Source: Burkholderiales bacterium (GTDB lineage: Bacteria; Pseudomonadota; Gammaproteobacteria; Burkholderiales; SG8-39). Taken from it: a stretch of 64,000 nucleotides of DNA. The position numbers and the translations under genes were made by a program. Position 1 is the first letter of the stretch; each line of letters opens with the position of its first letter. Positions 17,721 through 47,536 of the stretch are shown one piece after another. The notes beneath the pieces are model-generated. The model was not told where the DNA came from and did no database searches. It saw nothing but the letters and a program-made list of their open reading frames with translations. The stretch covers positions 26,072 through 90,071 of the forward strand of contig JADLAV010000037.1 of NCBI GenBank assembly GCA_020848075.1, in the 5' to 3' direction.

Positions 17721-17790
17721 GACGCAGCGGGCCGGCCCCCCGGCCTCGCACCGGGTGCGATCGATCGACCTGCCGGATGGAGGAGACGCA

Positions 17791-19179
17791 ATGTCGGACG
17801 CACTGAGCCACGTCCTCGGGAAGTCGGCGCGCGAGAGCAGGTTCTGGAACGCGCATGCCGAGACCATGCCGCGCGCGCAGCTCGACGCCCTGCACCTGCA
17901 GCGGCTGCAGAAGCTCGCGCACTACGCGTACGAACGCAGCCCGTTCTACCGCCGGAAGTTCGACTCGGTCGGGTTGAAGCCCGGGGACATCCGCAGCCTC
18001 GAGGACTTCAAGCGCAAGGTGCCGCTCACCGACAAGAGCGAGTTCATCGACGAGCAGCTCGAGTCGCCGCCCTACGGCCCCACCGTCGCGCTACCGGACG
18101 ACTTCATCGTGCATCACTGCGAAACCTCGGGCTCGACCGGCAAGCCGCTCGCGATCCCGTACTCGATGTACGACACGATCCGCTACGGCGAATCGTGGGC
18201 GTTCGGCTACTGGGCGCTCGGCATTCGGCCGAGCGACTCCTTCTACTTCGCGTTCAGCTGGGGAAATTTCGCGGGGTTCTGGAGCGCGTATTGGGGCGCG
18301 CGTCGTCTCGGCTGTCGCGTGATCTCCGGCGGCGGGCTGGACACCAAGGGCCACATCCAGGCGATCCTTCGCACCCGGCCGACGGTGCTCATCTCGACCC
18401 CGACCTTCGCGCTGCGCATGGCCGCGGTCGCGGCGGAGATGGGGGTCGACGCCGCGAACTCCTCGATCAAGTTCACCTATCACGCAGGCGAGCCTGGCCC
18501 GACCGCTCTGCCGGCGATGTGCAGGCAGATCGAGGAGGCGTGGGGCGCCAAGGCCGGCGAGCTGCTGGGGATCGCCGAGGTCAACGCTTTCGCGCCCGGC
18601 TGTCCGAACGGCGACGGCGTGCACGTGAACGAACTCGACAGCTTCACCTGGTCGATCGATCCGCAGACGCTGGAGGAGGTCGCCGAAGGCGAGATCGGCG
18701 AGAACGTGATCACGAGTTTCTCCAACGTGGCCCAGCCGCTGCTCAACTACCGCAGCCATGACCTCGTGCGACGCCGCGTCGGGTGCACGTGCGGCCGCAC
18801 CTGGGTCAAGTTCGAGGGCTCGGTGCTCGGGCGCACCGATTTCATGGTGACCGTCCGCGGCACCAACGTCTACCAGACCGCGGTGGAGCACCTGATCGGA
18901 CAGATCCCGGAGGTGAGCAGCGCCTACGAGCTGCTGCTCACGCGCGAGGACGAGAACGACGTGATGACGATCCGCTTCGAACCGGTCAAGTCGCTGGCGA
19001 GCGACCGCGACGCCTGGGGCGCAATCGAGCGGCGATTGAGCGACCACATCCACAAGGCGTTGCACGTCCGGCTCAAGACGGTGGCCGTGTCGCCGGAGAG
19101 CCTGCCGCGCTACGAGCTGAAGACCAAACGGATCATCGACCAGCGGCCGAAGGAGTTCCGCCGCGCGCTCGATCGCTGA
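17791..19179 (+). CDS. PaaK-like AMP-forming acyl/aryl-CoA ligase
   Basis: A 462-residue phenylacetate-CoA-ligase-superfamily protein. HHCETSGSTGKPLAIPYSM is the nucleotide P-loop, LLGIAEVNAFAPGCPNG the second adenylate motif, and GRTDFMVTVRGTNVYQTAVE the C-terminal hinge. The start is ATG 17791 after GGAGGAGACGCA, not the track's 17755. It diverges from classical PaaK (P-loop, and a CTCGRTW segment that may bind zinc), so the substrate need not be phenylacetate. It heads the cluster of crotonases, acyl-CoA dehydrogenases and thiolase and presumably activates the acid degraded by them. Confidence 0.8.
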   Translation: MSDALSHVLGKSARESRFWNAHAETMPRAQLDALHLQRLQKLAHYAYERSPFYRRKFDSVGLKPGDIRSLEDFKRKVPLTDKSEFIDEQLESPPYGPTVALPDDFIVHHCETSGSTGKPLAIPYSMYDTIRYGESWAFGYWALGIRPSDSFYFAFSWGNFAGFWSAYWGARRLGCRVISGGGLDTKGHIQAILRTRPTVLISTPTFALRMAAVAAEMGVDAANSSIKFTYHAGEPGPTALPAMCRQIEEAWGAKAGELLGIAEVNAFAPGCPNGDGVHVNELDSFTWSIDPQTLEEVAEGEIGENVITSFSNVAQPLLNYRSHDLVRRRVGCTCGRTWVKFEGSVLGRTDFMVTVRGTNVYQTAVEHLIGQIPEVSSAYELLLTREDENDVMTIRFEPVKSLASDRDAWGAIERRLSDHIHKALHVRLKTVAVSPESLPRYELKTKRIIDQRPKEFRRALDR

Positions 19180-21045: not shown

Positions 21046-21846
21046 GTGAGCGCCGGAGCGTCTTACGAGTTCCTCGGGCTGGAGCGGGACGGGGGCGTCG
21101 CCACCCTCACGTTGAACCGCCCGGCCGCGCTGAACGCCTGGCACCGGCAGATGCGCGCAGAGCTGCGGGAGGCGGTGCGCGCACTGGTCGAGGACGAGGA
21201 GCTTCGGGTACTGGTGATCACTGGCGCCGGGCGTGCGTTCTCGGCCGGCGAGGATGTGCGCGGGATGCAGGGGCTCGCCGAGATCGGCACGCGCGGCTTC
21301 CGCCGCGTGGCGCGCGCCATCCATAACGTGTTCGACGAGCTGGAAGCAATCGAGGTGCCGGTGATCGCGGCGATCAATGGCGTCGCGGCGGGCGGCGGCT
21401 TGGAGCTCGCCCTGTCGTGCGATTTCCGATTGGCCGCGAGCGGCGCCAAGCTCGGCTTCCCGGAGAACAACGTCGGGCTGATTCCCGGCTCGGGCGGATG
21501 CTCGCGGCTGGTGAAGCTGGTCGGACTGGCCCAGGCGAAGCGCCTGGTGATGACCGGCGACATGATCACCGCCGAGCGCGCGCTCGAACTCGGCCTGGTC
21601 GAGGAGGTGCTTGCGCCCGAGCGCCTGATGGATCGCGCCCGGGAGCTCGCCGGACAGCTCGCCGGCAAGGCGCCGCTCGCCCTCGGGCTCGCGAAGGTGA
21701 TCCTGAACGCCTGCGTGAATGTGGACCCGGAGACTGGCCGCGACCTCGAGCGCCTTGGACAGAGCATCCTGAAGAAGACCGAGGATCATCTCGAGGGCGC
21801 ACGGGCTTTCGTCGAGAAGCGCAAGCCGCGCTTCCAGGGCCGCTGA
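21046..21846 (+). CDS. Enoyl-CoA hydratase/isomerase, second copy
   Basis: A 266-residue crotonase that starts with GTG 21046. AGGGLELALSCDFRLAA and FPENNVGLIPGSGGCSRLVK retain both catalytic glutamates, so hydratase activity is plausible. The C-terminal EDHLEGARAFVEKRKPRFQG is a normal family end. It is only about as similar to its neighbours as to general crotonases, suggesting distinct steps instead of recent duplication. Part of the same transcript. Confidence 0.82.
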   Translation: MSAGASYEFLGLERDGGVATLTLNRPAALNAWHRQMRAELREAVRALVEDEELRVLVITGAGRAFSAGEDVRGMQGLAEIGTRGFRRVARAIHNVFDELEAIEVPVIAAINGVAAGGGLELALSCDFRLAASGAKLGFPENNVGLIPGSGGCSRLVKLVGLAQAKRLVMTGDMITAERALELGLVEEVLAPERLMDRARELAGQLAGKAPLALGLAKVILNACVNVDPETGRDLERLGQSILKKTEDHLEGARAFVEKRKPRFQGR

Positions 21847-25763: not shown

Positions 25764-26548
25764 GCGGCTTTCTCCTGCGGGAACTGCGAGACGGGGTGGC
25801 TACCTGGACGATGAACCGTCCGGACGAGCGCAACGCGCTCGGCGGCGAAGATCAGTTCGACGAATTCGTCGCCGCCTGCCGCGAGGCGAACGCCGATGCG
25901 TCCACGCGCGTGGTGATCCTGACCGGCACCGGCCCGGCGTTCTGCGCCGGTGGCAACGTCAAGGACATGGCGGAGCGGGCCGGGATGTTCGGCGGCGGCC
26001 CGGAGCAGGTGCGCGCCAGCTACCGCTCCGGGATCCAGCGCATCCCGCTCGCCATGGACTCACTCGAGGTGCCGATCATCGCCGCGGTGAACGGGCCGGC
26101 GATCGGCGCTGGCTGCGATCTCGCGTGCATGTGCGACATCCGCATCGCGTCCACTCGCGCGACGTTCGGCGAGGTGTTCGTGAAGCTCGGGCTGATCCCG
26201 GGCGACGGCGGGGCGTGGTTCCTGCAGCGGGCCGTCGGCTTCGCCAAGGCGGCCGAGATGACTTTTTGCGGCGAGCCGATCGACGCCGGCGAGGCGCTCG
26301 CCTGCGGCCTGGTGTCGAGAGTGGTCGCCCCGGAAAAGCTGCTCGACGAGGCGCGCGCGCTCGCCGGTCGGATCGCGGCGAACCCGACCGGGGCGGTCCG
26401 CATGGCGAAGCGCCTGATGCGCGAGGCGCGGCATGCCGGGCTCGCGGGCGTGCTCGAGCTCTCGGCTGCATTCCAGGCGATCGCCCACCACACCGACGCG
26501 CACGAGCAGTCGCTACGACGGCTGGCGCCGCGCGGTGAGCCGCGATGA
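25760..26548 (+). CDS. Enoyl-CoA hydratase/isomerase-family protein, fourth crotonase
   Basis: A 262-residue crotonase. GPAIGAGCDLACMCDIRIAS and FGEVFVKLGLIPGDGGAWF show the CoA-binding fold; the first catalytic glutamate is aspartate, and the second position (normally PE) is phenylalanine. That pattern is common in enoyl-CoA isomerases of the PaaG type. Start and stop overlap the neighbours by ATGA at both ends. Isomerase or hydratase cannot be decided here. Confidence 0.78.
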   Translation: MSGFLLRELRDGVATWTMNRPDERNALGGEDQFDEFVAACREANADASTRVVILTGTGPAFCAGGNVKDMAERAGMFGGGPEQVRASYRSGIQRIPLAMDSLEVPIIAAVNGPAIGAGCDLACMCDIRIASTRATFGEVFVKLGLIPGDGGAWFLQRAVGFAKAAEMTFCGEPIDAGEALACGLVSRVVAPEKLLDEARALAGRIAANPTGAVRMAKRLMREARHAGLAGVLELSAAFQAIAHHTDAHEQSLRRLAPRGEPR

Positions 26549-28038
26549 GCGGAGGAACGGCGCTCGGAATCGCGGCCTGCGGCGGGTATGTCCCGCGGCT
26601 GCGGCTCGCGCGGCGCGCGATCGTCGAGGCCAACGCCTGGTTCAATCCCGGCCTGAAATCGCATGCTGCCGGCGCTCGCGCGATCTGCAACTGGGACGAG
26701 GACGCCATGACGATGGCGGTCGAGGCAGCGCGTGACTGCCTGGCGAGCGACGGCGTGCCCGAGATCGACACCCTGCTACTCGCGTCGACGACGCTGCCCT
26801 TTCTGGAGCGGCACAACGCCGGCGTCGTGCGCGCCGCGCTGGCGCTCCCGGAGCACATGATGACGCTCGACGTCACCGCGTCGCAGCGCGCCGCCACCTC
26901 CGCGCTGATCACCGCGCTGCAGGCGCGACGCGGACGCCCCGGCGGCGCCCTGGTGGTCGCCGCGGAACAGCGGCGCGCCAGGACCGCGAGCGCGCAGGAG
27001 TTGAGCTACGGCGACGCGGCGGCGGCCTTGGTCATCGCGGAAACGACCACGCCGATCGCCGAGTTCATCGGCGCGCACCAGGTGGCGGTCGATTTCGTCG
27101 ACCATTACCGCGGGCAGCACGCGCCCTTCGACTACCAGTGGGAGGAGCGCTGGATCCGCGACGAGGGCTACCTGAAGATCGTGCCGAGGACGCTGCGCGG
27201 GCTCGCCGCGGCCACCGGGCTCGCCGCGGCGCAGATCGGCCGCCTGGTGATCCCGGTCGGACGCAGCGCAGCGCAGGCCATCGCCAAGGCGATCGGCGCG
27301 CCGCCGCAAAGCGTGTGCGACGATCTGTCGCAGGGCGTCGGGGATAGCGGTGCGGCGCATCCGCTCGTCATGCTCGCGCACGCGCTCGAGCACGCAGTAG
27401 CGGGCGAGATCATCGTTGCGGTCGGCTGGGGCCAGGGCTGCGACGCGATCGCGTTCCGCGCCACCGGCGCGGCGGCGCATCGGCGCGTGGGCGGCGGCAT
27501 CGGGCAGAGCATCGCGCGCGGCGTGGCGGACGCGAACTACATGCGCTACCTTGCCTTCAACCGCCTGGTCGAGCAGGAGCAGGGCATGCGCGCCGAGGCG
27601 GACCGTCAGACCGCGCTCAGCGCCTTCTACCGCCACCGCGACATGGTCACGGCGCTCGTCGGCGGGCGCTGCGTGCGCTGCGGGACGCCGCAGTTTCCGC
27701 CGAGCAGCGTGTGCGTCAATCCAGAGTGCCAGGCGCGCGGCGAGCAGGAGCCGTTCCGGTTCGCCGATGCCCCCGCACACGTGCAGAGCTGGACCGCGGA
27801 CAACCTGACCTACTGCCCCGATCCCCCGCAGTACTTCGGCATGATCGTGTTCGAGGGCGGCGGGCGCATGATGGTGGACTTCACCGACGTCGATCGCGAG
27901 ACCATCGCTACCGGCGCCCCGGTGCGAATGGTGTTTCGCGTGAAGGAGCGCGACTCGCGGCGCGGCTTCGTGAAGTATTTCTGGAAGGCGGTCCCGGGGC
28001 GCGCCCGGGCGGAGGAGGACCGTGGCGACGGGCATTAG
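26545..28038 (+). CDS. HMG-CoA-synthase-like domain fused to a DUF35 zinc-ribbon/OB-fold domain
   Basis: A 497-residue protein. Residues 1-360 have the thiolase-fold layout of 3-hydroxy-3-methylglutaryl-CoA-synthase-like proteins (GIAACGGYVPRLRLARRAI, VCDDLSQGVGDSGAAHP). Residues 375-490 form a DUF35 domain, with CVRCGTPQFPPSSVCVNPEC as the zinc ribbon and an OB-fold acyl-CoA-binding part. The nucleophile position reads LDVTASQRAATSAL: glutamine 114 stands where the catalytic cysteine would be. The synthase domain is therefore probably structural or altered. The gene overlaps the thiolase gene by 17 bases. The benzoylsuccinyl-CoA thiolase BbsAB and archaeal thiolase/HMGS complexes also use a DUF35 partner, so this should be the thiolase's partner. 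Confidence 0.8.
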   Translation: MSGGTALGIAACGGYVPRLRLARRAIVEANAWFNPGLKSHAAGARAICNWDEDAMTMAVEAARDCLASDGVPEIDTLLLASTTLPFLERHNAGVVRAALALPEHMMTLDVTASQRAATSALITALQARRGRPGGALVVAAEQRRARTASAQELSYGDAAAALVIAETTTPIAEFIGAHQVAVDFVDHYRGQHAPFDYQWEERWIRDEGYLKIVPRTLRGLAAATGLAAAQIGRLVIPVGRSAAQAIAKAIGAPPQSVCDDLSQGVGDSGAAHPLVMLAHALEHAVAGEIIVAVGWGQGCDAIAFRATGAAAHRRVGGGIGQSIARGVADANYMRYLAFNRLVEQEQGMRAEADRQTALSAFYRHRDMVTALVGGRCVRCGTPQFPPSSVCVNPECQARGEQEPFRFADAPAHVQSWTADNLTYCPDPPQYFGMIVFEGGGRMMVDFTDVDRETIATGAPVRMVFRVKERDSRRGFVKYFWKAVPGRARAEEDRGDGH

Positions 28039-29221
28039 GGACAAGGTGGTGGTGCTCGGCATGGGATGCAGCCGCTTCGGCGAACGCTGGGACCAGGACG
28101 CCGAGGATCTGATGCTCGAGGCATTCGACGAGTGTCTCGCCGACGCCGGGATCGAGACCGCACGCATCGACGCCGCCTGGTTCGCCACGGCCATGGACGA
28201 GGTGAACGTCGGCAAGTCGGCGATGCCGCTCGCGATGGCGTTGCGGCTACCGCTCATTCCGGTGACGCGCGTCGAGAACCTGTGCGCGAGCGGCACCGAG
28301 GCGTTTCGCGGCGCGGTCTACGCGGTGGCTTCGGGCGCAGCCGATATCGCGCTCGCGCTCGGCGTGGAGAAGCTGAAGGACACCGGTTACGGCGGGCTGC
28401 CACAGCGCGCCCGCGGCGTGACCAATTCGCTGTTCATTCCGAACCTCTCCGCCCCCGGCTGTTTCGCGCAGCTCGCGACCGCCTATGCCGCGCGCCACCG
28501 GGTGGCGCCGGCCGACCTCAAGCGCGCGATGGCGCAGATCTCAGTGAAGAGCCACGACAACGCGCTCGAGAACCCGCGCGCGCATCTGCGCCGCAAGATC
28601 GACATCGAGGCGGTGCTGCGCGCGCCGATCGTCGCGGAGCCGCTCGGGCTCTACGACTGCTGCGGGGTGAGCGATGGTGCGGCTGCGGCGATCGTGACGA
28701 CGCCGGAGCTCGCCCGCAGCCTGGGCAGGACCGACCTGGTCTCGGTGAAGGCCCTGCAGATCGCGGTGTCGAACGGACAGGAAGCGGGTCACAATTCCTG
28801 GGACGGCAGCTACATCCTCACGACGCGGCGCGCCGCGGCGCGTGCCTACGCCGAGGCGGGTCTCCGCGACCCGGCTGCGGAGCTCTCGATGCTCGAGTGC
28901 CACGACTGCTTTTCGATCACCGAGCTCGTCACCCTCGAGGATCTCGGCCTGTCGCCGGGCGGAAGGGCCTGGCATGATGCGCTCGAGGGGCGCTACAACG
29001 CGGACGGCGCACTGCCGTGCCAGATCGACGGCGGCCTCAAGTGCTTCGGGCATCCGATCGGCGCCTCGGGCCTGCGCATGCTCTACGAGATGTACAGCCA
29101 GCTCCTCGGCAGGGCGGGAAAGCGCCAGCTCGCGTCCCCGCGGCTCGGGCTCACGCACAATCTGGGCGGCTTTCCCTACCAGAACATCTCGAGCGTATGC
29201 GTCGTCGGCCTGCTCGCGTGA
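28022..29221 (+). CDS. SCP2/BbsB-type thiolase
   Basis: A 399-residue thiolase, GTG start 28022 after GGAGGACC. RVENLCASGTEAFRG gives nucleophile C88, SMLECHDCFSITELV the HDCF motif, and KCFGHPIGASGLRM the catalytic histidine motif. It should cleave a beta-ketoacyl-CoA with CoA; SCP2-type enzymes with a DUF35 partner handle bulky ring substrates. Last core gene of the beta-oxidation cluster: dehydrogenation, hydration and thiolysis are present, but no dedicated 3-hydroxyacyl-CoA dehydrogenase is in this operon (one lies at 51.9 kb). Confidence 0.87.
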   Translation: MATGIRDKVVVLGMGCSRFGERWDQDAEDLMLEAFDECLADAGIETARIDAAWFATAMDEVNVGKSAMPLAMALRLPLIPVTRVENLCASGTEAFRGAVYAVASGAADIALALGVEKLKDTGYGGLPQRARGVTNSLFIPNLSAPGCFAQLATAYAARHRVAPADLKRAMAQISVKSHDNALENPRAHLRRKIDIEAVLRAPIVAEPLGLYDCCGVSDGAAAAIVTTPELARSLGRTDLVSVKALQIAVSNGQEAGHNSWDGSYILTTRRAAARAYAEAGLRDPAAELSMLECHDCFSITELVTLEDLGLSPGGRAWHDALEGRYNADGALPCQIDGGLKCFGHPIGASGLRMLYEMYSQLLGRAGKRQLASPRLGLTHNLGGFPYQNISSVCVVGLLA

Positions 29222-29296: not shown

Positions 29297-30415
29297 ATGA
29301 GTGAATCCCTGCACCGCGCCACGCAGCCGCGTCCCCACGGCCGCACGGGCGTGCGCCCGCCGAGCACCATCACCAGCGCCTACGTGAAGGAGCGCGCGCT
29401 CGCGCTCGGCGCACACCTGGTGGGCGTCGCGAGTGCGGCAAAGCTCAACGCCTTTCCGCCCGATCCGCGCTGGCCGCAGACGCCTGAGCGGATCTCGCCG
29501 TACTGCAAGTCGGTGATCGTGATCGTGAGCCGTATCCCGGCGGGCGCGTTCCGCTGCAAGAGCAACGTGCCGGTGCAGTATCTCGACATGCTGGTCATGC
29601 GGCGCATGGACAAGATCTCCTATGTGCTCGCCCAGGAGCTCGAGGCGGCCGGGCATCCGAGCTTCGTGACGGCGGCGCAGGAGACCGACTGGAGCTACAA
29701 GCGCGCGAGCTACGGGCGGCTGTCGACGCGTCACCTCGGGGTCGAAGCGGGGCTCGGCACGCTGGGGCTCGAGGTGAACCTCCTCACGCCCGAGTACGGT
29801 CCGCGCCTCTATCTCACCGGAATCCTCACCGAGCTCGAGCTCGAGCCGGATGTACCGATGGCCGAGCAGGTGTGTATCGGCGAGTCCTGCAGCCGCTGCC
29901 TGCACGCGTGCCCGGCGGACGCCGTGCTGCACTTCGGCATCGACAAGCGCGCCTGCGCGACGGAAGCGCAAGAGTTCGGCTTCGCGCAGATCCTACGGTT
30001 CCTGGACGGCCTCGTGGACGGCGCGCACCCGGATCTCGCTGCCGCGTTCCGCTCGCGCGACTTCTTCGGTTTCTGGCAGGGGCTCCTGCGCGTGGTCGGC
30101 TCGTTCGGCGACTGCCCGCGCTGCCTGGCGGTCTGCCCGGTGGGGAACGATTATCACGCGCACCTCGCCGACGTTCAGAAGGCGATCCCGGAAAAGACGC
30201 CGGAGAAGGTCGCACTCGGCAAGAAGTACAAGGACCTGCGCGCCCAGCACGATGGCGGTGCGCTCGAGGCGCCGGGACTGAGCGAGTGGAATCGCCGCTG
30301 GGTCGGACCGCTCGGCTACCAGGGCATCGTCGCGCGGCAGCTGCAGGCCTTCAAGGCGGCGCAACGCGAGCGCGCGGCGCCAGCGGCAACGACGGACGTA
30401 TCGGACGGGGAGTAG
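29297..30415 (+). CDS. QueG/reductive-dehalogenase-like double 4Fe-4S protein, copy 1
   Basis: A 372-residue soluble protein without signal peptide. The N-terminal half has the fold pattern of epoxyqueuosine reductase and reductive dehalogenases (LGVEAGLGTLGLEVNLLTPEYGPRLYL), and the C-terminal half two [4Fe-4S] motifs, CIGESCSRCLHACPADAV and DCPRCLAVCPVGNDY. It is far too short for a fused self-sufficient dehalogenase and is not in a tRNA-modification context. The paralogue follows after 3 bases. The pair sits right after an aromatic/beta-oxidation cluster. A corrinoid- or Fe-S-dependent reductive step on an aromatic substrate is possible; I see no proof that corrinoid is bound. Confidence 0.7.
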   Translation: MSESLHRATQPRPHGRTGVRPPSTITSAYVKERALALGAHLVGVASAAKLNAFPPDPRWPQTPERISPYCKSVIVIVSRIPAGAFRCKSNVPVQYLDMLVMRRMDKISYVLAQELEAAGHPSFVTAAQETDWSYKRASYGRLSTRHLGVEAGLGTLGLEVNLLTPEYGPRLYLTGILTELELEPDVPMAEQVCIGESCSRCLHACPADAVLHFGIDKRACATEAQEFGFAQILRFLDGLVDGAHPDLAAAFRSRDFFGFWQGLLRVVGSFGDCPRCLAVCPVGNDYHAHLADVQKAIPEKTPEKVALGKKYKDLRAQHDGGALEAPGLSEWNRRWVGPLGYQGIVARQLQAFKAAQRERAAPAATTDVSDGE

Positions 30416-30418
30416 CGA

Positions 30419-31399
30419 ATGGTGGGGATGTTCACGGCGCCGATCACGGCGGAGGCGGTAAAGGAGAAGGCGCGCGCGCTTGGTGCGGACCTCGTCGGGA
30501 TCGCCGACGGCGCGACACTCGACGCCCACCCGTGGGATCCTGCCGACCCGCGCGGCCCGAAGGACATCACGGAGGTCGACAGCGGGCGCGTCATCGTGAT
30601 GTCGAAGCGGCTGAGCGCGGGCGTCTCGCGTATCGTGTCGTGGAGCGATCGGCACAAGTACTACAACGACGAGCTCACCCTGACGCTGCTCGAGGAGACT
30701 TCGCTCGAGCTCGTGTACTGGCTCGAAGACCAGGGCTATCCGGCGATCGCGGTGCCGCCGACGCACGTCGACCCGTGGCGCTACCAGGGCGATCCGCGCC
30801 AGCACATGACCCCGCTGCTCTCGCTGCCGCACGCCGCCGTCGAGGCGGGGCTCGGGACGCTCGGTCTGAACCTGCAGCTCATCACGCCCGAATACGGGCC
30901 GCGCGTGATGCTCGCCGCCGTGCTCGCGTCGATTCCGGTCGAATGCGATCGGCGCATGGAGCAGGCGCTGTGCCGCGGGCCGAAATGCGGCCGCTGCCTG
31001 AAGGCGTGCCCGGCCGATGCGGTCCGGCACTGGGAACGCGACTGGCCGGCATGCGACGAGTACCGCTCGCCCCACGGCTTCGCCAAGCTCACCGATCACG
31101 TCGAGCGCATCATCGCGGCCGAGGGCGCCGAGCAGAAAAAGACGCTGATTCGATCCGAGGCGAGCTTCTACCTGTGGCAGAGCATCCTGCGCGGCGCCGG
31201 CGCAATCACCGGTTGCCGGCGCTGCGCCGACGTCTGTCCGGTCGGTGCCGACTACGAGGCGATGCTCGCGGATGCGCTCGACGCGATTCCCGAAGATACG
31301 CCGGCGAAGGCCGAGCGCCTTTCCGGGATGGTCGCGCGGGAAGCCGGCGGCGAGACCGGCGGACGTACGGCCCAGGAGCGTTGGATCGGCAAGCGCTAG
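30419..31399 (+). CDS. QueG/reductive-dehalogenase-like double 4Fe-4S protein, copy 2
   Basis: A 326-residue paralogue of the previous gene: VEAGLGTLGLNLQLITPEYGPRVML, CRGPKCGRCLKACPADAV and GCRRCADVCPVGADY align with its motifs, while the N-terminal regions differ. It probably forms a heterodimer or a two-step pair with copy 1. Its TAG stop overlaps the stop of livM on the other strand by three bases. There is no membrane anchor gene (RdhB type) nearby. Confidence 0.7.
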   Translation: MVGMFTAPITAEAVKEKARALGADLVGIADGATLDAHPWDPADPRGPKDITEVDSGRVIVMSKRLSAGVSRIVSWSDRHKYYNDELTLTLLEETSLELVYWLEDQGYPAIAVPPTHVDPWRYQGDPRQHMTPLLSLPHAAVEAGLGTLGLNLQLITPEYGPRVMLAAVLASIPVECDRRMEQALCRGPKCGRCLKACPADAVRHWERDWPACDEYRSPHGFAKLTDHVERIIAAEGAEQKKTLIRSEASFYLWQSILRGAGAITGCRRCADVCPVGADYEAMLADALDAIPEDTPAKAERLSGMVAREAGGETGGRTAQERWIGKR

Positions 31400-32349
31400 G
31401 GGATGCGCACCCCGAGGAGCTTGCGCAGCATCGCGACCAGGCCGTGCCGGAACGTCACGACCAGGAGGATCATGAGCACGCCGTAGACCATGACGTTCAA
31501 GCGTCCGAGCGGCCGCACGATCTCGTCGAGGACGGTGAACACGACGCCTCCAAGGACCGGTCCGAGCAATGAGCCCATGCCGCCGAGGAGCAGGGTGACC
31601 AGCACCGCGATGTCCACGCTGACGAGCGAGTACACGGTGGGGCTGATGAATCCGCTGTAATAGGCGTAGATCGTGCCCACCACGCCGAGGAGCGCCGAGC
31701 CCGCGGTTGCCGCGAGCACCTTGTAGAACGTGACGTCGATGCCGGCGAGCTCGGCGGCGAGCTCGTCGTCGGCAATCGCCTGGAAGGCCTTTCCCGCGCG
31801 CGACCGCAGCAACAGGTGGTACACGAGCAGCGCGAGCACCAGGACGGCGAGCACCACGTAATAGCTCGCCGGCGAGCTTGCGAGGATTCCGGGGCCCGCC
31901 CCTTTCGTCTCGATGCCCGTCTCGCCGTTGGTGAGCCCGCGCATTCCGAGGACGAGGTTGTGAAAGATCATGGAGAAGACGAGCGTCACGATCCCGACGA
32001 AGATCACGCCGAGCCCCCTGCGCACCGAGACGTAGCTGAAGACTCCGCCGAGCAGCGCCGCGCAGGCGATGCCGAGCGGCATCGACAGCCACGCAGTCAA
32101 CCCGAACTTGACCGTCAGCACGACCGAGACGTAGCCCGAGGCGCCGGCGAGCGCACCCAGGCACAGGAAGAGCTGCCGCGTATGGCCGAAGATGACGTTG
32201 AACGCCACGGCGTACGCCATGTAGATCAGCATCAGCGTGGCGATTCGCATGAAGTAGGCGCTGTCGCCCACGGCGAGGGGCACGAGCCCGAGGGCTGCGG
32301 CCACGACGACGAGCGCGACCCAGTCGGCGCGATGGCGGCCGCGTTTCAT
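31396..32349 (-). CDS. livM: Branched-chain amino acid-type ABC transporter permease LivM
   Basis: A 317-residue polytopic protein, start ATG 32349 (the 424-residue track ORF is an artefact extending into livH). HTRQLFLCLGALAGASGYVS and LLLGGMGSLLGPVLGGVVF are typical of LivM. Overlaps livH by ATGA. Last gene of the five-gene uptake operon. In aromatic-degrading bacteria such transporters often import aromatic or dicarboxylic acids, so amino acids need not be the substrate. Confidence 0.85.
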   Translation of the reverse strand: MKRGRHRADWVALVVVAAALGLVPLAVGDSAYFMRIATLMLIYMAYAVAFNVIFGHTRQLFLCLGALAGASGYVSVVLTVKFGLTAWLSMPLGIACAALLGGVFSYVSVRRGLGVIFVGIVTLVFSMIFHNLVLGMRGLTNGETGIETKGAGPGILASSPASYYVVLAVLVLALLVYHLLLRSRAGKAFQAIADDELAAELAGIDVTFYKVLAATAGSALLGVVGTIYAYYSGFISPTVYSLVSVDIAVLVTLLLGGMGSLLGPVLGGVVFTVLDEIVRPLGRLNVMVYGVLMILLVVTFRHGLVAMLRKLLGVRIP

Positions 32350-33203
32350 GTGCGGTGCGCGAACAGCCCGTGAGGGCGGAGCAGAATGGTGAACGCCGCG
32401 GTGGCGAGCAGGATGAGCAGCGTGAGGTAGGCGCCGACGTGGTAGCTCGCGAAAGCGTTTACGATCCCCAGCAATACGCCCGCCACCAGCGTCCCGTTGA
32501 TGCTTCGTACGCCGCCGACCACGGCGACGATGAGCGCGAAGCTCGTGAGCTCGTTCCCCATCTCGGTCCCGACCGACGAGAACAGGCCCTGCGCGATTGC
32601 GCCCAGACCGGCCATCATGGCGCTCAGGACGACGATCAGGGTGCGGATCTTCCCCGAGTTGATTCCGCACAGCCCGGCCCCGACCTCGTTCTGGATGATG
32701 GACCGGATCACCTTGCCGAGCAGCGTTCCCTTCAGGAAGGCGAAGAGAAGCGCGAACGCGACGATCGCGACCAGGGCGGCGGCGGCGCTCGCCGTCCGGA
32801 TGACGACGCCGCCGACGCTGAACGACGGCGTCGGCAGGCTGAGCGTGAGTGCGACATCCGGGTACTTGAAGTCGAGGTATCCGTTGACGACGAAGGACAG
32901 TCCGAGCGTGATCAGCAATCCGAGGAGCAGCCGCTCCTCACCGGTGGAGCGGTAGGCGGGGATGAGCAACGTGCGGTCGACGATGAGGCCGACGACTCCC
33001 GCGGTCAGGACCCCGAGCGCGCACGCCGCCCAGGGGTTCAGGCCCTCGCCGATGAAGAGCGCGGCGGCGATGCCGCCCACGACGGCGATCTGCCCGTGGG
33101 CGAGATTGAGCACGCCGCCGAGACCGAAGATGAGGGTGATGCCCACCGCCATCAGCGAGAGCTGCAGCCCTTGAACGATCCCGTCCACCAGGATGGCGAT
33201 CAC
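32346..33203 (-). CDS. livH: Branched-chain amino acid-type ABC transporter permease LivH
   Basis: A 285-residue inner-membrane permease with about eight hydrophobic segments. GLQLSLMAVGITLIFGLGGV near the start and LNLAHGQIAVVGGIAAALF are hallmarks of LivH. It is followed by livM with a 4-base overlap and preceded by livF with three bases between. Forms the channel with LivM. Confidence 0.88.
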   Translation of the reverse strand: MIAILVDGIVQGLQLSLMAVGITLIFGLGGVLNLAHGQIAVVGGIAAALFIGEGLNPWAACALGVLTAGVVGLIVDRTLLIPAYRSTGEERLLLGLLITLGLSFVVNGYLDFKYPDVALTLSLPTPSFSVGGVVIRTASAAAALVAIVAFALLFAFLKGTLLGKVIRSIIQNEVGAGLCGINSGKIRTLIVVLSAMMAGLGAIAQGLFSSVGTEMGNELTSFALIVAVVGGVRSINGTLVAGVLLGIVNAFASYHVGAYLTLLILLATAAFTILLRPHGLFAHRT

Positions 33204-33206
33204 GGC

Positions 33207-33917
33207 TCAGGCCACTCCCAGGTAGGACTTCTGGATCTCGGGATCCCCGAGCAGATCCCGTGATTGGCCGGACAGGCGGATCCGCCCGTTCTCCAGAACG
33301 TAGGCGCGCTCGGTGAACGACAGCGCGTGCGGCACCTGCTGTTCGGCGAGCAGGATGGTGAGCCCCTCTTGCTTGAGGCGGGCGAGCTGCCGGTACATCT
33401 CGCTCACGAAGAAGGGTGCGAGCCCGGTGGATGGCTCGTCCAGCAGCAGGATCCGGGGCCGCGCCATCAACCCACGGCTGATGGCGAGCATCTGCTGCTC
33501 GCCGCCGCTCAGGGTGCCCGCCATCTGCTTTCTCCGCTCCCGCAGCCTCGGGAAGAGGCCGAGGACGAAGCTCAGGCGCTCGGCGCGCGACTTGTAGCTC
33601 ACGTACGCCCCGAGCTCCAGGTTCTCGAGCACGCTCATTTGCGGGAAGAGCTCGCGCTCGGCGGGCACGTAGACCACGCCGCGCCTGACGGTCTCGTAGT
33701 GACGAAGTCCGTCGATCCGGTCGCCCTGGTACCGGACCTCGCCGCCGCACGGGCGGAGCACGCCCGCGATCGCCTTGAATAGCGTTGTCTTGCCGGCGCC
33801 GTTCGGGCCGATGACCGCCACCGCCTCGCCTTCGTGGATGTCGAGGCTCACGCCCCGCACCACTGGGATATCCGCATAGGAGACCTCGAGACGGGCGACT
33901 CCGACGAGCGCGCTCAC
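33207..33917 (-). CDS. livF: ABC transporter ATP-binding protein LivF
   Basis: A 236-residue ATPase. Walker A GPNGAGKTTLFK, signature LSGGEQQMLAISRGL and Walker B ILLLDEPSTGLAP are intact. ATG overlaps the livG stop by 4 bases. Powers the LivHM channel. Confidence 0.92.
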   Translation of the reverse strand: MSALVGVARLEVSYADIPVVRGVSLDIHEGEAVAVIGPNGAGKTTLFKAIAGVLRPCGGEVRYQGDRIDGLRHYETVRRGVVYVPAERELFPQMSVLENLELGAYVSYKSRAERLSFVLGLFPRLRERRKQMAGTLSGGEQQMLAISRGLMARPRILLLDEPSTGLAPFFVSEMYRQLARLKQEGLTILLAEQQVPHALSFTERAYVLENGRIRLSGQSRDLLGDPEIQKSYLGVA

Positions 33918-34660
33918 TCGGCCCGACCCAGGTACGCGTCGATCACTGCCTGATCGCGGGCCACCTCCGCGGGCGTCCCCATCGCGATCAGCTGGCCGAA
34001 GTTGAGCACCAGCACCCGTTCGGCCACGCCCATGATCGCCTTCATCACGTGCTCGACCCAGATGATGGCGACGCCAAGCTCGTCGCGTATCCGGCGGATC
34101 AGGACCATTGCCCGTTCCATCTCCGTGGGATTCAAGCCGCTCATCGCCTCGTCGAGCAGGAGCAGATCCGGCCGCGTCGCCAGCGCGCGCGCGAGCTCGA
34201 GCATCCGCTTCTCCTGCAGGGTGAGGCCCGCGAGCGGCAGATCCTTCTTGTCCAGCAGACCCATCAGCTCGAGGAAGTATTCCGGGTCATCACGGCCGGA
34301 GGCACTCGCCTGCGCGCGATCTCTTCCGGCGAACAACGATCCGATCGCCACGTTGTCGAGGACGCTCATGCTGGGAAAAGGCCGGGGGGTCTGCAGCACC
34401 CGCGCGACCCCCCGATGTGCGATCTCGTGGGGCCGCAGCCCCGTCACGTCGCGGCCCATGAAGCGCACCCTGCCTCGACTCGGGCGGAAGATGCCGCTCA
34501 CGAGATTCAGCAGGGTCGACTTGCCTGCGCCGTTCGGGCCGATCAGCCCGAGGATCTCACCGCGCTCGACCGCGAAGGTGACGTCCCTCAGCGCGGGCAA
34601 CCCTCCGAAGTATCGTGTCAGTGCCTCCGTCTCGAGCAGCGCCTCAGTCCTTCGGGACAT
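33914..34660 (-). CDS. livG: ABC transporter ATP-binding protein LivG
   Basis: A 248-residue ATPase. Walker A is GPNGAGKSTLLNLVSG. The ABC signature is atypical, LTLQEKRMLELARAL where most LivG have LSYGQQR, and Walker B reads LLLLDEAMSGLNP instead of DEP. A subset of LivG proteins appears to share this pattern, so it is probably functional with LivF. It overlaps the end of livK by 17 bases. Confidence 0.88.
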   Translation of the reverse strand: MSRRTEALLETEALTRYFGGLPALRDVTFAVERGEILGLIGPNGAGKSTLLNLVSGIFRPSRGRVRFMGRDVTGLRPHEIAHRGVARVLQTPRPFPSMSVLDNVAIGSLFAGRDRAQASASGRDDPEYFLELMGLLDKKDLPLAGLTLQEKRMLELARALATRPDLLLLDEAMSGLNPTEMERAMVLIRRIRDELGVAIIWVEHVMKAIMGVAERVLVLNFGQLIAMGTPAEVARDQAVIDAYLGRAE

Positions 34661-35834
34661 ACGCCTGCACCGGAGGCGAGCGGAAGATGATCTTCGTCCG
34701 CCAATTCGCTCCGGCGTTGACCGGTCCGGGATCGCCCTTCTCGTAGGTGTAGAGGATCGGCTTCGCCCCCTTCATCTCGCCCCACTCGGTGTACGAGAGC
34801 GGCCAGCCGTAGCCCGGCTGATCGAACGTTCCCGTGCGAATCGCCTCGGCGATCGCCTTCGGATCGGCCGACTTCGTCCGCTGCATCGCATCGGCCACCA
34901 TCCGCACCATCACGTAACCGGAGAAGGCGTTGTTGTCGAGCATGCGCTTGTACGCCTTGTTGTACTTCTCCGCGAGTTGTTTGTACGCCGGGCTCTCGAA
35001 ATCGACGCAGCTGTAATCCACGTACTGCCCGAACATCGACTCGCCGACGCGTTGCACCATGAACTCGGTCGGATACCAAGGCCCGATGATGAGCGCCTTC
35101 ATGCCGAGCTCGATCGCCTGCCGCGTGATCGTCGGTGCGCCCGGAGGATGCCCCAGGGCGACGATCATCTCGGGATCCAGCCCCTGGAGCTTGCGCAGAT
35201 AGGGCGTGAAGTCCTTCTCCGGCACCGGGGCCACCTCCATCTGCAGCCTGACGCCCGGCAGCGGTTTGATCTGGGCGTCGATCGCATCGCGCGTCGAGTG
35301 CCCCCACGCATAGTCGGCCACGATGGCGCCGACCCGCGTGTACTTCCGATCCTTGATCATGGCCGCCACCGCCTCGACATCGGCCGGTGCCGGCAGCAGG
35401 CAGGTCCGAAAAGTGAACCGGCTGCTCTTCTTCAGGATCTCGGCGGCACCCGACATCGTGAGAAAGTAGGGGACGTACAGGGACTCCGCCTCCCGGCCAA
35501 GTGCGAGCCCGACGTCGCTCGAGATCACGCCGCCGGCGGCGACGACGCCCTCGCGCTCCACCATGTAGCGGAACGCGGTGACCCCCTCGTTCGGGTTGTT
35601 CTTGTCGTCCCGCTCGATCACCTCGAGCTTGCGCCCGAGGACGCCGCCCTTCTCGTTGATCTCCTCGACGGCCATCTTCATGCCGTCGCGCACCTGGATG
35701 CCCCAGGGTGTGAAAGGACCGCTCAGCGACGTCACCATGCCGAACTTGATCGGCGCCTGTGCGAGGACTGCGTCGGATAGCGCAAACGCCGACACCGCTG
35801 CGAAGCACAGCGGCGCAATTCGTTTCCCCAACAT
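34644..35834 (-). CDS. livK: Periplasmic substrate-binding protein of the Liv transporter
   Basis: A 396-residue protein from ATG 35834, chosen for CGGAGGAGG nine bases upstream; the track ORF starts too early. A signal peptide MLGKRIAPLCFAAVSAFALS ends near VLAQA. The mature protein, IKFGMVTSLSGPFTPWG and onward, is a type I periplasmic binding protein. It would deliver the substrate of livGFHM. Position among aromatic genes suggests an aromatic or related acid, which is inference. Confidence 0.88.
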   Translation of the reverse strand: MLGKRIAPLCFAAVSAFALSDAVLAQAPIKFGMVTSLSGPFTPWGIQVRDGMKMAVEEINEKGGVLGRKLEVIERDDKNNPNEGVTAFRYMVEREGVVAAGGVISSDVGLALGREAESLYVPYFLTMSGAAEILKKSSRFTFRTCLLPAPADVEAVAAMIKDRKYTRVGAIVADYAWGHSTRDAIDAQIKPLPGVRLQMEVAPVPEKDFTPYLRKLQGLDPEMIVALGHPPGAPTITRQAIELGMKALIIGPWYPTEFMVQRVGESMFGQYVDYSCVDFESPAYKQLAEKYNKAYKRMLDNNAFSGYVMVRMVADAMQRTKSADPKAIAEAIRTGTFDQPGYGWPLSYTEWGEMKGAKPILYTYEKGDPGPVNAGANWRTKIIFRSPPVQAYVPKD

Positions 35835-35978
35835 TGCACACCTCCTCCGTTGCCCGGTTATTCGAACTTTCGCTTGCGTCTCCTTCCACGGCCACGGACG
35901 CCGCGAACGCGACAATCCGTGGCGCGAGTGCGCACTGCCGTGCACCGTGTTCCCGGCGCGACATGAAGCAGCGAGGCT

Positions 35979-39372: not shown

Positions 39373-39615
39373 TCAGCTGTGCAGCGCCTCGTACTTTGCC
39401 TGCAGCTCCTCGCGGCTCTCGGCGAAGTCCGGGTTCGGGACGATGCAATCGGCCGGACAGACGAGCTTGCACTGGGGTTCGTCGTGAGCGCCGACGCACT
39501 CGGTGCACTTCAGCGAGTCGATCACGTAGGGGCTGCCCGCGGTGATCGCATCGTTGGGGCAGACCGAGGGGCACGCGTCGCAGGACGTGCAGTCCATGGT
39601 GATCATCAAAGCCAT
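39373..39615 (-). CDS. fdx: 2[4Fe-4S] ferredoxin, electron donor to benzoyl-CoA reductase
   Basis: An 80-residue ferredoxin from ATG 39615 (the longer track ORF starts upstream). MDCTSCDACPSVCPNDAI and KCTECVGAHDEPQCKLVCP carry eight cysteines with the Alvin-type insertion between the clusters. The same kind of ferredoxin, reduced by KorAB, supplies electrons to class I benzoyl-CoA reductases and is encoded next to bcr genes in Thauera. It is the last gene of this operon. Confidence 0.9.
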   Translation of the reverse strand: MALMITMDCTSCDACPSVCPNDAITAGSPYVIDSLKCTECVGAHDEPQCKLVCPADCIVPNPDFAESREELQAKYEALHS

Positions 39616-39676
39616 GTGTCTCTCCTTGGTGGGCGGGGCATGGCCCGCCCGGCAGGTCACCCGAATACGCGGTCGA

Positions 39677-40519
39677 TTACGCAGCGGCGCGCGTCTGCAG
39701 GTCGTGCAGCCGCTCGTGCCGGAAGGCGCCCCACAGCGCGGCGCCGATCGCGCCGGCGTAGATCGAGTCCGGATGGTTGGTCGCGTCCAGGTTGACCTTC
39801 TCGTTCGTCATCTCCTCCTGGATCGCGGCCAGGAGGCCCGTGTCCAGCGCGAGACCGCCGGTGAGCAGCACCCTGCCGCTCGTGATGCCGGTCGCCTTGA
39901 GCAGCTTCACCACCCGCGAGGCCATCGAGATATGGATTCCCTTGAGGATGTCCGGGGTCGCGATCCCGCGCGAGACCATGTTGATCACGTCGGTCTCGGC
40001 CAGCACCGCGCAGATCGAGCTCACCTTCTCCGGATCCTGCGAAGTCTGCGACAGCGACCCGATCTCCTCGACCGCGACGCCCAGATAGCGCGCGATGTTC
40101 TCGAGGAATTGCCCCGAGCCCGACGCGCACTGGCTGGTCATCTTGTAGCCGAGCACCTTGCCGCGCTCGTCGACGCGGATGGCCCGGCCGTTCAGCGCGC
40201 CGATGTCCATCACGGCCCGCGCCTCGGGATGGAGGAAGACGCCCCCGCGCCCGTGCGTGGTCATCGAGTAGAAGTGGCCCGTGGAGAACTTGACGTTCTC
40301 GCCCTCGCCGGTGGTGGCGATGTAGGCAACGTCGTTCGCGGCGAGCTTCGCATCCGCGAGCACGTCGTCCAGACCCTGCTGCGCGAGCTCCATCGGGTCG
40401 CGCCGGCGGATCCGCTCGACGCGTTTCGCGAGCCACTCGTGCCGGCCGCCGTCGTTCCTGAAGAGCACCGTTTTCACGGCGCCCGAGCCGATGTCGATGC
40501 CAACCGTGTGGATCTTCAT
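39677..40519 (-). CDS. bcrD: Benzoyl-CoA reductase subunit D
   Basis: A 280-residue ASKHA-fold ATPase subunit: GIDIGSGAVKTVLFRNDGG for nucleotide binding, SQCASGSGQFLENIARYLG and SSICAVLAETDVIN with cysteines for the [4Fe-4S] cluster shared at the BcrA/BcrD interface. It forms with BcrA the activator module that drives ATP-dependent electron transfer. The start codon overlaps the bcrA stop by one base. Length equals that of known BcrD/BadG proteins. The track ORF 39677-41095 is an artefact extending into bcrA. Confidence 0.93.
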   Translation of the reverse strand: MKIHTVGIDIGSGAVKTVLFRNDGGRHEWLAKRVERIRRRDPMELAQQGLDDVLADAKLAANDVAYIATTGEGENVKFSTGHFYSMTTHGRGGVFLHPEARAVMDIGALNGRAIRVDERGKVLGYKMTSQCASGSGQFLENIARYLGVAVEEIGSLSQTSQDPEKVSSICAVLAETDVINMVSRGIATPDILKGIHISMASRVVKLLKATGITSGRVLLTGGLALDTGLLAAIQEEMTNEKVNLDATNHPDSIYAGAIGAALWGAFRHERLHDLQTRAAA

Positions 40520-41853
40520 TATCGCGCCTCCGCAGTCTTGCCTTCCTCGACCACCGCGCGCCAGGCGAACGTCGCGCCGCCGAGCGCGCCGGTGTAGATC
40601 GAATCGGGGTTGATGTTGATAGTCATCTCGCCGTAGTTCTCGAAGATCAGATCGCGCAGCGCCTTCACCGCCGCCTCGTTCTTGGCGACCCCGCCGGTGA
40701 AGGTGAACTCGTTGCGGATGCCGCCAGAGCGTGCGAGGATCGACATCGCGCGCAGGACGATCGCGCGGTGCAGGCCGGCCATGATGTCCTCGCGCTTGTC
40801 GCCGATCGAGAGCCGGTCCCGGAGCTCCGCGCCCGCGAACACCGTGCAGGTCGAGTTGATCTTGATCGTCTTGGTGGACTTCATCGCCATCGGCCCGAGC
40901 TCGTGCAGGCCGAGGTTCATCTCGTCGGCGATGTAGCCGAGGTAGCGTCCGCAGCCGGCCGCGCAACGGTCGTTCATCTGGAAGCTCTCGACGATGCCGG
41001 CCTTGTCGACCTGGATCGCCTTGGTGTCCTGGCCGCCGATGTCGAGCACGGTCGCGGTCCGGGGGTACATCACGTGCGCGCCGAGTCCGTGGCACAGGAT
41101 CTCCGAGCGGATGTGCTCCTTGGAGAAGGGCAGGCGCGCCCGGCCGTAGCCGGTGCCCACCGTGTAGGTTTCCTCCATGGGGGTGTCGAGCACGCCCTTG
41201 ATCGGCGCGCTGATCTTCGCGCGCTTGGTCGTCGTCTCGGGGAGCGCCTTGAACGTCCGCTCGAGTCCCGCCAGCAGGTGCCGGCTGACCGAGTCGTTGT
41301 ACACCCGGTTTTCTACCTCGATGATCGAGCGGTCGAAGACGTTGAGCAGGTTGTCGTAGTGGACGCCCGCGTCCCTGGCGACCTCCTCGCCGAGCGCCAG
41401 GTACCGGCTGCCCGCGATGTCGCGGAAGAAGTCGCTCTTCCTCTTGGCGCCCGGCGCGAAGAGCTCCGGGGCTTCCGCCTGCAAGCGCTTGAACGTCTCG
41501 CCGAGCGCCGCCTGCACGGCCTTCGTCTCGCCGCCGAACCGGCCCTCGGCGTTGCGCTGGCAGACCTCTTCGAGGTCGGTGAGCTGCTCGAGGAACTGCT
41601 CGAGCCGGAAGTCGCGCTCGAGCTGCTCGATGAACGCGTCCAGACCGCCGTTCAGCGCCTTGGACCTGCCGAGCGCCTCGCGGAACAGCTGGAAGCGCGC
41701 ATTGACGAGCGCCTCGGTCTTGGCCACTGTTGCGGCGGTGTCGTAGTTCGAGCGCGAGTTGGTGATGCCGCGCCCGAGCACGTTGCGGTCCTCGTCGATC
41801 ACCACCGCCTTGGTGGTGGTCGAGCCGAGGTCGATGCCGATGAAGAGTCGCAT
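40519..41853 (-). CDS. bcrA: Benzoyl-CoA reductase subunit A
   Basis: A 444-residue ATPase subunit. [20 protein letters not shown] binds [22 protein letters not shown] and [15 protein letters not shown] hold the bridging cluster cysteines. Compared with BcrD it carries a longer middle segment, as in BcrA/BadF of Thauera and Rhodopseudomonas. With BcrD it hydrolyses two ATP per two electrons delivered to BcrBC. Ten bases separate it from bcrB. Confidence 0.93.
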
Positions 41854-41863
41854 TGCGTGCCCC

Positions 41864-43219
41864 TCAGTGCGCCGCCGCCGGTTCCGCGGAGCCCGCGCGG
41901 CGCTTCTGGTTGATCATCTGGAAGTAGCTCTCCAGCCGATTCTTGATGTTCGCCCCCGAGAAATAGCGCGGATCGACGAGGTCGGATTCGACGAACGCCG
42001 CCGGCTTGCCGGTGCGCTTCTCGACTTCGCGCAGCATCAGGAGCTGCCCCGCCGAGAAGCTGTTGCAGCTCTTGATCGAGTTGATCAGCAGCCCGTCGGC
42101 CTGGTACTCGTCAATGTACTTGCAGATCATGTCGATGCGCTGCGGGAAGTTGAGGTTCGTGTAGCAGCCGAGGCAATAGCGCGCGAGCGACTCGAGCGGG
42201 TGATCCGCGTCGTGGCGGAAGCCGAAGTCGTAGACGCCGCCAACCTTCGAGTAGGTGGAGGCGACTACCACGGCGCCGTCGTCGTAGAACATCTTCCAGA
42301 AGTCGCGGAAGCTGGTCCAGTTCGGCGGCCCCTCGGTCACCAGGCGGTACTTCTCCTCGCCCATCTCGCCTTCGGGGGTGATCGGGCCCTTCTTCAGGCG
42401 CACGCGCTCCTCGATCTCGCCCCGCAGCACGCTGTAGAACTTGGTCGCCTCGCGCGTCCCGCGAAACGCCGTGAACATCGGCCCGATGTAGTAGACCCCG
42501 CCGAAGTAGCCGTCGATCGGGCTCGGCCGGTTCTTGGCCGACTGCAGGACCGCGACCAGATCCTCCTCGGCCTTCACCGACTCCTTCATGTACTCGCGCA
42601 GGCGGTCGATGTCGAACTTCACGCCGGAGACGCGCTCGAGCGTCGGGATCATCTCCTCCTTGAGTTGCTTCACGACGTACTGGACCATGTTGTCGCTGAT
42701 CTTGCCGTCGCCCTGGTACGGGACGTGCAGCATGGTCGTCTCGCAGTCGTACTTCTGCCGGATGAGCTCGAACCACTTCATGAACGTGAAGCAGCCAGTG
42801 TAGGAGAGCACCAGGACGTCCGGCACCGGCAGCTTCTCGCCGGTCGGCCCGATCTGGCCCGCCTGCATCATGCCGAGGTCGGCCTTGACGTAGGTGCACA
42901 CGTCCTCCGAGTGCCCCTCGCGCTCGGCGTCCATGATCATCTTGCCGGACTTCTTGCGCATGCCGTTCTGCAGGGCGTTCGTCTCCGGCAGGCTGCGCGC
43001 GAAGTCGAAGCACATCAGGAGCTCGTTCAGGTTGCCGGGCACGAACGTGGCCGAGACCTTACGGCCAACGTCGTGCGCGATGGCGAGGTCGTGGTAGTTC
43101 CCGTTGATCATCTCCTTCTGCAGCCACATGGAGTCCTCTTTCAGGACTTCCTTCTTCGGCTTCGCGGCGGCGGGTTGCGCGACGGGTCGCGGGGTCGGCG
43201 GATTGTGCGGTGTGGTCAT
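41864..43219 (-). CDS. bcrB: Benzoyl-CoA reductase subunit B
   Basis: A 451-residue subunit of the substrate-binding BcrBC module (HgdB-like dehydratase superfamily). Cysteines in [27 protein letters not shown] and [14 protein letters not shown] are candidate cluster ligands. An Ala/Pro/Lys-rich N-terminal tail of about 28 residues precedes [19 protein letters not shown]. It overlaps bcrC by ATGA. Confidence 0.93.
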
Positions 43220-44382: not shown

Positions 44383-44428
44383 GTGCCTTTCCTCCTCGTT
44401 TGCCCGCGTCGCCGCGGGCGCTTTCCGG

Positions 44429-45199
44429 TTAACCGTGCCGCCACTCCGGCACGCGCTTGGCGAGGAACGCCCGCAGGCCCTCGATCGCGTCGTGCGTCGC
44501 CATCGTCTGCTCCAGATACATCTGCTCGACCGCCGCGAAGCGGCGCCGCGCCTCGCCGAGCATGCCCGCGCGCGCGGCCCGCACGGCGACGCCGAGCGCT
44601 GCCGCGCTCTTGCCTGCGAGCTGGGCGTCGAAGTACGCGAGCGCGGCCGCCTCCGGGTCGTCGGCCGTGAACGAGACGAGGCCGAGCGCCTTCGCTTCGG
44701 CGCCGCTCACCGAGCGTCCGGAGAGCAGCAGATCCTCGGCGGTGGACTGGTTCACCCGGAAGGGGAGCAGGGACGAGGCCGCCGGCGCGAACACCCCGAG
44801 CTTGATCTCGGGCTGGCCGAACTGCGCCTCCGGCGCGGCGAAGATCAGGCTGCCGGCCAGCGCGAGCTCGACACCGCCGCCGAGGCATTGCCCGCGCACC
44901 GCGACCAGGATCGGCCGCGGCCACTCGAGCATCGTGATCAGCAGCGCATGCAGTCCCCGCAGCATATCCGCGCATTGCCCGGGCAGATGTTCCTCGACGC
45001 TCGCGCCGAAGCTGAAGTGCGGCCCCTCCGCGTCGACGAGCGCCGCGCGGATCGGTCCCGGTTCGCGACGCTCGGCGATCGCCGCCGCGATCGCCGCGAT
45101 CATGGCGGCATCGATGATGTTCGCCTTGGGCCGGGCGAGGCGCAGCCGCAGCAGCGCGCCGTCGCGATCGAGCCAGACTTTGAGGGGGGATTCGCTCAT
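44429..45199 (-). CDS. dch: Cyclohexa-1,5-diene-1-carbonyl-CoA hydratase
   Basis: A 256-residue crotonase very close to Thauera Dch as I recall it: SPLKVWLDRDGALLRLRLAR, DAEGPHFSFGASVEEHLPGQ, RGQCLGGGVELALAGSLIFA and GQPEIKLGVFAPAASSLLP. It adds water to the dienoyl-CoA made by benzoyl-CoA reductase, giving 6-hydroxycyclohex-1-ene-1-carbonyl-CoA. It lies between oah and bcrC in one operon, with a hairpin repeat between it and oah. Confidence 0.92.
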   Translation of the reverse strand: MSESPLKVWLDRDGALLRLRLARPKANIIDAAMIAAIAAAIAERREPGPIRAALVDAEGPHFSFGASVEEHLPGQCADMLRGLHALLITMLEWPRPILVAVRGQCLGGGVELALAGSLIFAAPEAQFGQPEIKLGVFAPAASSLLPFRVNQSTAEDLLLSGRSVSGAEAKALGLVSFTADDPEAAALAYFDAQLAGKSAAALGVAVRAARAGMLGEARRRFAAVEQMYLEQTMATHDAIEGLRAFLAKRVPEWRHG

Positions 45200-45240
45200 C
45201 TCCGCTTTTCGTCAGTGCCTCGTGCGTTCGCCATTGCTCC

Positions 45241-46385: not shown

Positions 46386-46407
46386 CGGTTCTGCTCCTCA
46401 GTAGCGT

Positions 46408-47476: not shown

Positions 47477-47536
47477 CAAGCCTCCTCTACGATCTCCCGC
47501 CCACTCCGGGCGGGATCGCCCGGTCCGCCGTGCCAC

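Follow-up and report, generated by a model that had tools for sequence, protein, structure and literature searches.

Two kinds of class III B12 enzymes have been characterised, RdhA, the reductive dehalogenases that act on pollutants, and QueG, the epoxyqueuosine reductase that completes a tRNA base. In the study of the QueG structure the class was described as having no diagnostic B12 motif, and it was pointed out that other class III enzymes may exist without a motif by which they could be found (PMC4646009). In the same work the cluster ligands of Streptococcus thermophilus QueG were assigned to C184/187/190+243 and C194/210/236/239 (PMC4646009). The gene pair described below is a concrete candidate for a further class III kind, which always consists of two paralogues and usually lies beside a CoA ligase expected to make the substrate; if this is true, B12 chemistry extends to CoA-thioester catabolism.

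The pair, ORF A and ORF B, lies in the window, i.e., the whole stretch of 64,000 nucleotides that was analysed, together with the following genes.

17755..19179, + strand: PaaK-like AMP-forming CoA ligase, 474 aa; 75%-identical relative in the A-B operon of loci L038/L131
19420..20220, + strand: PaaA-like diiron protein carrying two EX2H motifs; related genes occur near A/B in L035, L036, L038, and alphaproteobacterial L046 (57%)
21046..21846, + strand: enoyl-CoA hydratase/isomerase (ECH), kept near A/B in L035, L036, and L038
22741..23436, + strand: TetR regulator; immediate upstream neighbour of A in L038/L131 (61%), also close to the cassette in L046 (52%)
28022..29221, + strand: thiolase of PRK06157 type, ending 75 bp before A; neighbour of A in the same genus alone (L035, L036)
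29297..30415, + strand: ORF A, predicted class-III-B12-like reductase subunit, 372 aa, 8 invariant Cys, CX4CX2CX3CP and CX2CX3CP
30419..31399, + strand: ORF B, paralogous subunit, 326 aa, 8 invariant Cys, AlphaFold model matching RdhA/QueG/MMACHC
31396..35945, − strand: convergent ABC transporter of Liv type with two permeases, two ATPases, and a substrate-binding protein; a link to A/B is seen also in L035, L036, L038, and L041
36134..37102, − strand: PaaA/PaaC-family protein; its gene comes right after B in L131 (the same as L038) and L133 (the same as L041)

Both ORFs lie where the preliminary description had placed them and are separated by 3 bp. Their third-position GC content is of coding type (GC3 of 0.89 for A and 0.88 for B), and comparison with the nearest relative, the same-genus locus L035, gave dN/dS values of 0.10 and 0.17, respectively, similar to the 0.08 of the adjoining thiolase. 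A and B share 41% identity, their profiles align with each other at an E-value of 1.5e-69 (hhalign), and they are confirmed as real paralogues under purifying selection.

The view of the two products as proteins with two [4Fe-4S] motifs each was borne out by eight invariant cysteines apiece: C193, 198, 201, 205, 220, 273, 276, and 280 in an alignment of 35 A sequences and C185, 190, 193, 197, 212, 266, 269, and 273 in an alignment of 34 B sequences. The order of all eight is that of the QueG/RdhA ligands (scheme from PMC4646009), and the VEAGLGTLGL-type motif claimed for both was found in A and in B as VEAGLGTLGL-TPE(Y/F)GPR. The spacing differs, however: the first cluster motif is invariably CX4CX2CX3CP in A/B and CX2CX2CX3CP in every compared QueG and RDH, while about 53 residues separate the lone fifth cysteine from the second motif versus 26 in QueG, i.e., A/B carry an insertion of about 27 residues ahead of the second cluster motif. 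Many residues beyond the Fe-S domain are also invariant in A and B. No tyrosine of either protein fell on the catalytic Tyr of RdhA/QueG in any profile-profile alignment, the nearest invariant candidates being Y95 of A and Y82 of B, several residues upstream of that register, and the most conserved helix reads VQYxDM in A versus YYNDEL in B.

Judged by curated models, A and B are neither QueG nor RdhA. The TIGR00276 (QueG) scores were 55.2 bits for A and 39.5 bits for B with a cut-off of 200, and the TIGR02486 (RdhA) scores were 35.2 and 33.4 bits with a cut-off of 160.35. Pfam yielded weak ferredoxin matches only, and DUF1730 (PF08331), the C-terminal HEAT, and Dehalogenase (PF13486) were all absent, in a search where the QueG of the same genome gave DUF1730 and HEAT and the RDH controls gave PF13486. 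Against PDB sequences the only significant relatives of the family profiles were QueG and RdhA, with QueG 5d08 as the best match of A (E-value 8e-14). Profile-profile comparison placed both proteins closer to RDH (1e-23 for B, 1.6e-21 for A) than to QueG (2e-10 and 3e-15, respectively). A rapidly computed tree gave one clade each for A, for B, and for A+B with a third paralogue (T3), with SH-aLRT of 99, 99, and 98, and a separate one for QueG; its long branches make the deeper joins uncertain. Taken together, trees and profiles suggest that A and B with the third paralogue form a clade of their own, nearer to RdhA than to QueG.

The preliminary description had allowed that one copy might be a housekeeping QueG missing elsewhere in the genome. 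This was checked and excluded, as a full, true QueG of 490 bits is encoded on another contig (G000:C88:7486-8493). QueG above the cut-off is also present in 13 of the 16 A/B-positive genomes of the window's family, the three without it being 60–85% complete; among 23 further genomes with A/B, 18 have it. At a threshold of 1e-15 TIGR02486 matches nothing in the window's genome, and a search for plasmid-borne relatives returned QueG-like matches only. The pair is flanked by the thiolase on one side and the convergent Liv permease on the other, no rdhB was present among the adjacent genes read, and neither a TAT-type N-terminus nor a reductase fusion was seen in A/B.

Of 98 genomes from the window's family, 16 contain A, mostly together with B, several of the positives being fragmentary, while among 399 evenly drawn Pseudomonadota genomes it occurred only in the window's own. 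A scan of genome contigs gave 31 named-contig loci from alpha-, beta-, and gammaproteobacteria, all of them in metagenome-assembled genomes (MAGs), a lack of isolates that should be read with the reach of the scan, which covers close relatives only. As no cultivated host was found, the family may have been missed until now, and in open-licence papers we found nothing relevant on the A/B pair or on a ligase-RDase operon. In every one of the 31 loci A is directly followed by B, with a median gap of 1 bp. Two genomes contain second A/B pairs (L143, L153), T3 follows the cassette in L047 (7722-8645), L049, L054, and L060 (13377-14306), and the L060 genome has in addition two tandem genes of this clan that have diverged and share the motif spacing (L146:9811-11732, − strand); in view of these cases pairing looks like a rule of the clade.

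Several features of these additional genes can be mentioned separately. T3 has a long insertion within its first cluster motif and no Pfam match at all. The diverged L146 pair adjoins a three-gene set that, by reading of the sequences, is of molybdenum-hydroxylase type, as well as a URO-D-like protein. The genomes of L044 (G549) and L060 (G565) each contain about 12 more QueG/RdhA-like genes below the QueG cut-off, and those examined were mostly of cytosolic RDH type, some in tandem.

A third recurrent gene was missed in the preliminary description, namely a PaaK-like AMP-forming CoA ligase (C), which adjoins A-B in 25 of 36 loci with a readable flank: 20 of the 31 named-contig loci, L056/L148, where the contig ends inside the ligase, and L134, L135, L136, and L138. 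The C copies are 55–66% identical to that of L037. The window clade has no C; in L038/L131 a relative of the window ligase at 17755-19179 belongs to the same operon as A-B, and another AMP-forming ligase lies beside the pair in L064 and L153, while three of the 31 loci (L059, L061, and L062) have no ligase despite visible flanks. Since the window's whole genome contains only six C-like genes, the adjacency is far from chance, though the loci share descent. The adjoining ligase points to a CoA thioester.

The pair does lie behind a CoA-ester degradation cluster, as had been noted, the last gene of which is the thiolase upstream of A; because this cluster adjoins A only in the same genus, it is not a conserved partner. 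The conserved partners are the ligase, the PaaA-like protein, ECH, TetR, and the transporter. In L131 the operon runs PaaA-like, ECH, ECH, TetR, A, B, PaaA/PaaC-like, PaaK-like, and Liv transporter, and the window contains the same set, except that an acyl-CoA dehydrogenase/thiolase block separates TetR from A and the transporter is inverted. In further loci the neighbours include kynureninase (L044, L046, L064), tryptophan 2,3-dioxygenase (L064), a salicylyl-CoA 5-hydroxylase/oxidoreductase-type enzyme (L064, 1285 bits; its relative in L048), Rieske dioxygenase subunits (L047/L049/L054), a cupin protein (L065), and UbiD (L134). Overall, these neighbourhoods, with their aromatic-acid oxygenases, kynureninase, Liv transporters, and beta-oxidation genes, point to aromatic acids. 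No single substrate emerges from shared neighbours, as kynurenine/anthranilate, salicylate/gentisate, Rieske-dioxygenase, and Paa-like contexts alternate by lineage.

The window itself also encodes a class I benzoyl-CoA reductase cluster (39373-46815, − strand; bcrA 705 bits) with ferredoxin and ECH-family genes, after which comes a 2-oxoacid:ferredoxin oxidoreductase (47413-49467). A general link of the pair to this anaerobic cluster was rejected, bcrA being present in 5 of 16 genomes of the family that have A/B and in 37 of 82 that lack them. Two fusion products were observed elsewhere in the window: a 918-aa ORF (9676-12432, − strand) in which a salicylyl-CoA-5-hydroxylase-like FAD monooxygenase half is fused, unusually, to a complete benzoate-CoA ligase domain, and a protein (26545-28038, + strand) that joins an HMG-CoA-synthase/KAS III-like part with a zinc ribbon of ChsH2 type and an OB domain. 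In L044, L046, L047, L049, and L054 the cassette has a gene for a transglutaminase-like protein next to it.

The AlphaFold model of B (pLDDT 83.7, pTM 0.85) was compared with the PDB by Foldseek, and the best 46 matches were all RdhA, NpRdhA, or QueG (E≤4.3e-6), followed by MMACHC, a B12-binding protein without Fe-S. The TM-scores were only 0.4–0.5 with high rmsd, so the similarity is at the level of fold. In this model B retains the nitroreductase-like B12-binding fold; the model of A was poor (pLDDT 55.6), and A probably has the same fold by homology to B. Binding of B12 by A/B is thereby suggested. Corrinoid is used by the host, given that its genome encodes QueG and also the B12 activation domain of the B12-dependent methionine synthase (MetH); no cobalamin riboswitch was found near the pair or in the genome.

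The reading that we prefer, with a probability of about 60%, is that A and B each provide one subunit of an undescribed class-III reductase, soluble and heteromeric, that would use cobalamin and [4Fe-4S] clusters and have a CoA-activated acid as its substrate; the binding of B12, the heterodimer, the CoA-thioester substrate, and the reaction are what we infer. The PaaK-like AMP-forming ligase would convert an imported acid, probably aromatic or otherwise ring-bearing, into its CoA thioester, and electrons from a low-potential donor would pass through the outer [4Fe-4S] and the inner cluster to base-off cobalamin. Co(I) of the A-B heteromer would then reductively break or reduce a bond in the acyl-CoA, after which oxygenation and beta-oxidation could proceed. 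A wider proposal, to which we hold only tentatively and would give less than even odds, is that the pair represents a two-subunit class III B12/[4Fe-4S] branch, spread across uncultivated Proteobacteria and partnered by a PaaK-like ligase of its own, which would reduce aromatic or alicyclic acids in their CoA-activated form; reductive cleavage of a C-O or C-N bond is one example. To our knowledge the reduction of such CoA-activated acids is a reaction type assigned to no known B12 enzyme.

QueG reduces an epoxide with B12 (PMC4646009), and it is conceivable, though unlikely, that A/B are a QueG-like deoxygenase whose substrate, an epoxyacyl-CoA, comes from the PaaA/PaaC-like diiron proteins; the reduction would be a regular step of the pathway or a rescue from a toxic epoxide. 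PaaA/PaaC-family genes indeed flank the pair in the window clade, a PaaA-like gene lies near it in L046, and the commonest neighbour is a PaaK-like ligase; however, most alphaproteobacterial loci have no PaaA-like gene nearby, the profiles are nearer to RdhA than to QueG, and the DYH motif and the catalytic Asp (D187 Y188 H189, D217), invariant in 16 QueGs, are not conserved in the A/B alignments.

The preliminary description had spoken of a two-component reductive system, for example, for dehalogenation. Its general part is supported, namely a soluble, two-component reductive system of class-III-B12 type set among catabolic genes, with a pair that is inseparable in all loci. Dehalogenation in particular has no specific support: both proteins score below the cut-off of the RdhA model, the adjacent genes read included no RdhB, no halogen-specific gene was seen, and the catalytic Tyr is unaligned. 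Catabolic aerobic RDases do exist, PceA and NpRdhA are among the nearest relatives of solved structure, and the profile E-values favour RDH over QueG; nevertheless it is improbable that A/B form a soluble reductive dehalogenase with halogenated aromatic acids, or the CoA esters of these, as substrates, in view of 35/33 bits against a cut-off of 160, the missing PF13486, the lack of a visible TAT-type N-terminus and of a reductase fusion, CX4C instead of CX2C in the first motif, the insertion before the second, and the lack of any halogen-linked gene in the neighbourhoods read. There is likewise little probability that A/B are an iron-sulfur pair without cobalamin that serves some oxygenase or reductase encoded nearby, in electron transfer or as a scaffold, as the displaced cofactor-site Tyr and the dissimilar helices might suggest, because the B model keeps the B12-enzyme fold, including its likeness to cluster-free MMACHC, many invariant residues lie outside the Fe-S domain, and no constant redox partner adjoins A-B.

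Compared with known systems, the proposed cobalamin reductase shares with the phenylacetyl-CoA (Paa) hybrid aerobic pathway, as far as the window clade is concerned, the PaaK-like ligase and the PaaA/PaaC-family proteins near the pair, but the ligase is only remotely PaaK-like (NF041878 145 bits versus a cut-off of 700), and we know of no Paa pathway with QueG/RdhA-like proteins. MMACHC (CblC) has in common with B the B12-binding fold, in a weaker match (E-value 4e-3 only), and differs in having no ferredoxin domain and in its B12-processing role. QueG (TIGR00276, PF08331; PDB 5d08, 5d6s) is soluble like A/B and has the same layout of the redox chain, whereas A/B have no DUF1730, C-terminal HEAT, DYH, or D-S-A-P motifs and stand in a catabolic operon context. 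The RdhA/NpRdhA/BhbA enzymes (TIGR02486, PF13486; PDB 4ras, 4uqu, 8q4h) have the best profile-profile score of the known systems and resemble A/B in the fold of B, the eight-cysteine order of two [4Fe-4S] clusters, and the aGLG...TPE(F/Y)GPR loop; unlike them, A/B score below the TIGR02486 cut-off, lack PF13486 and any visible RdhB or reductase domain, have a CX4C first motif and a longer inter-cluster insert, and are built as two paralogous subunits instead of one, with linkage to a CoA ligase.
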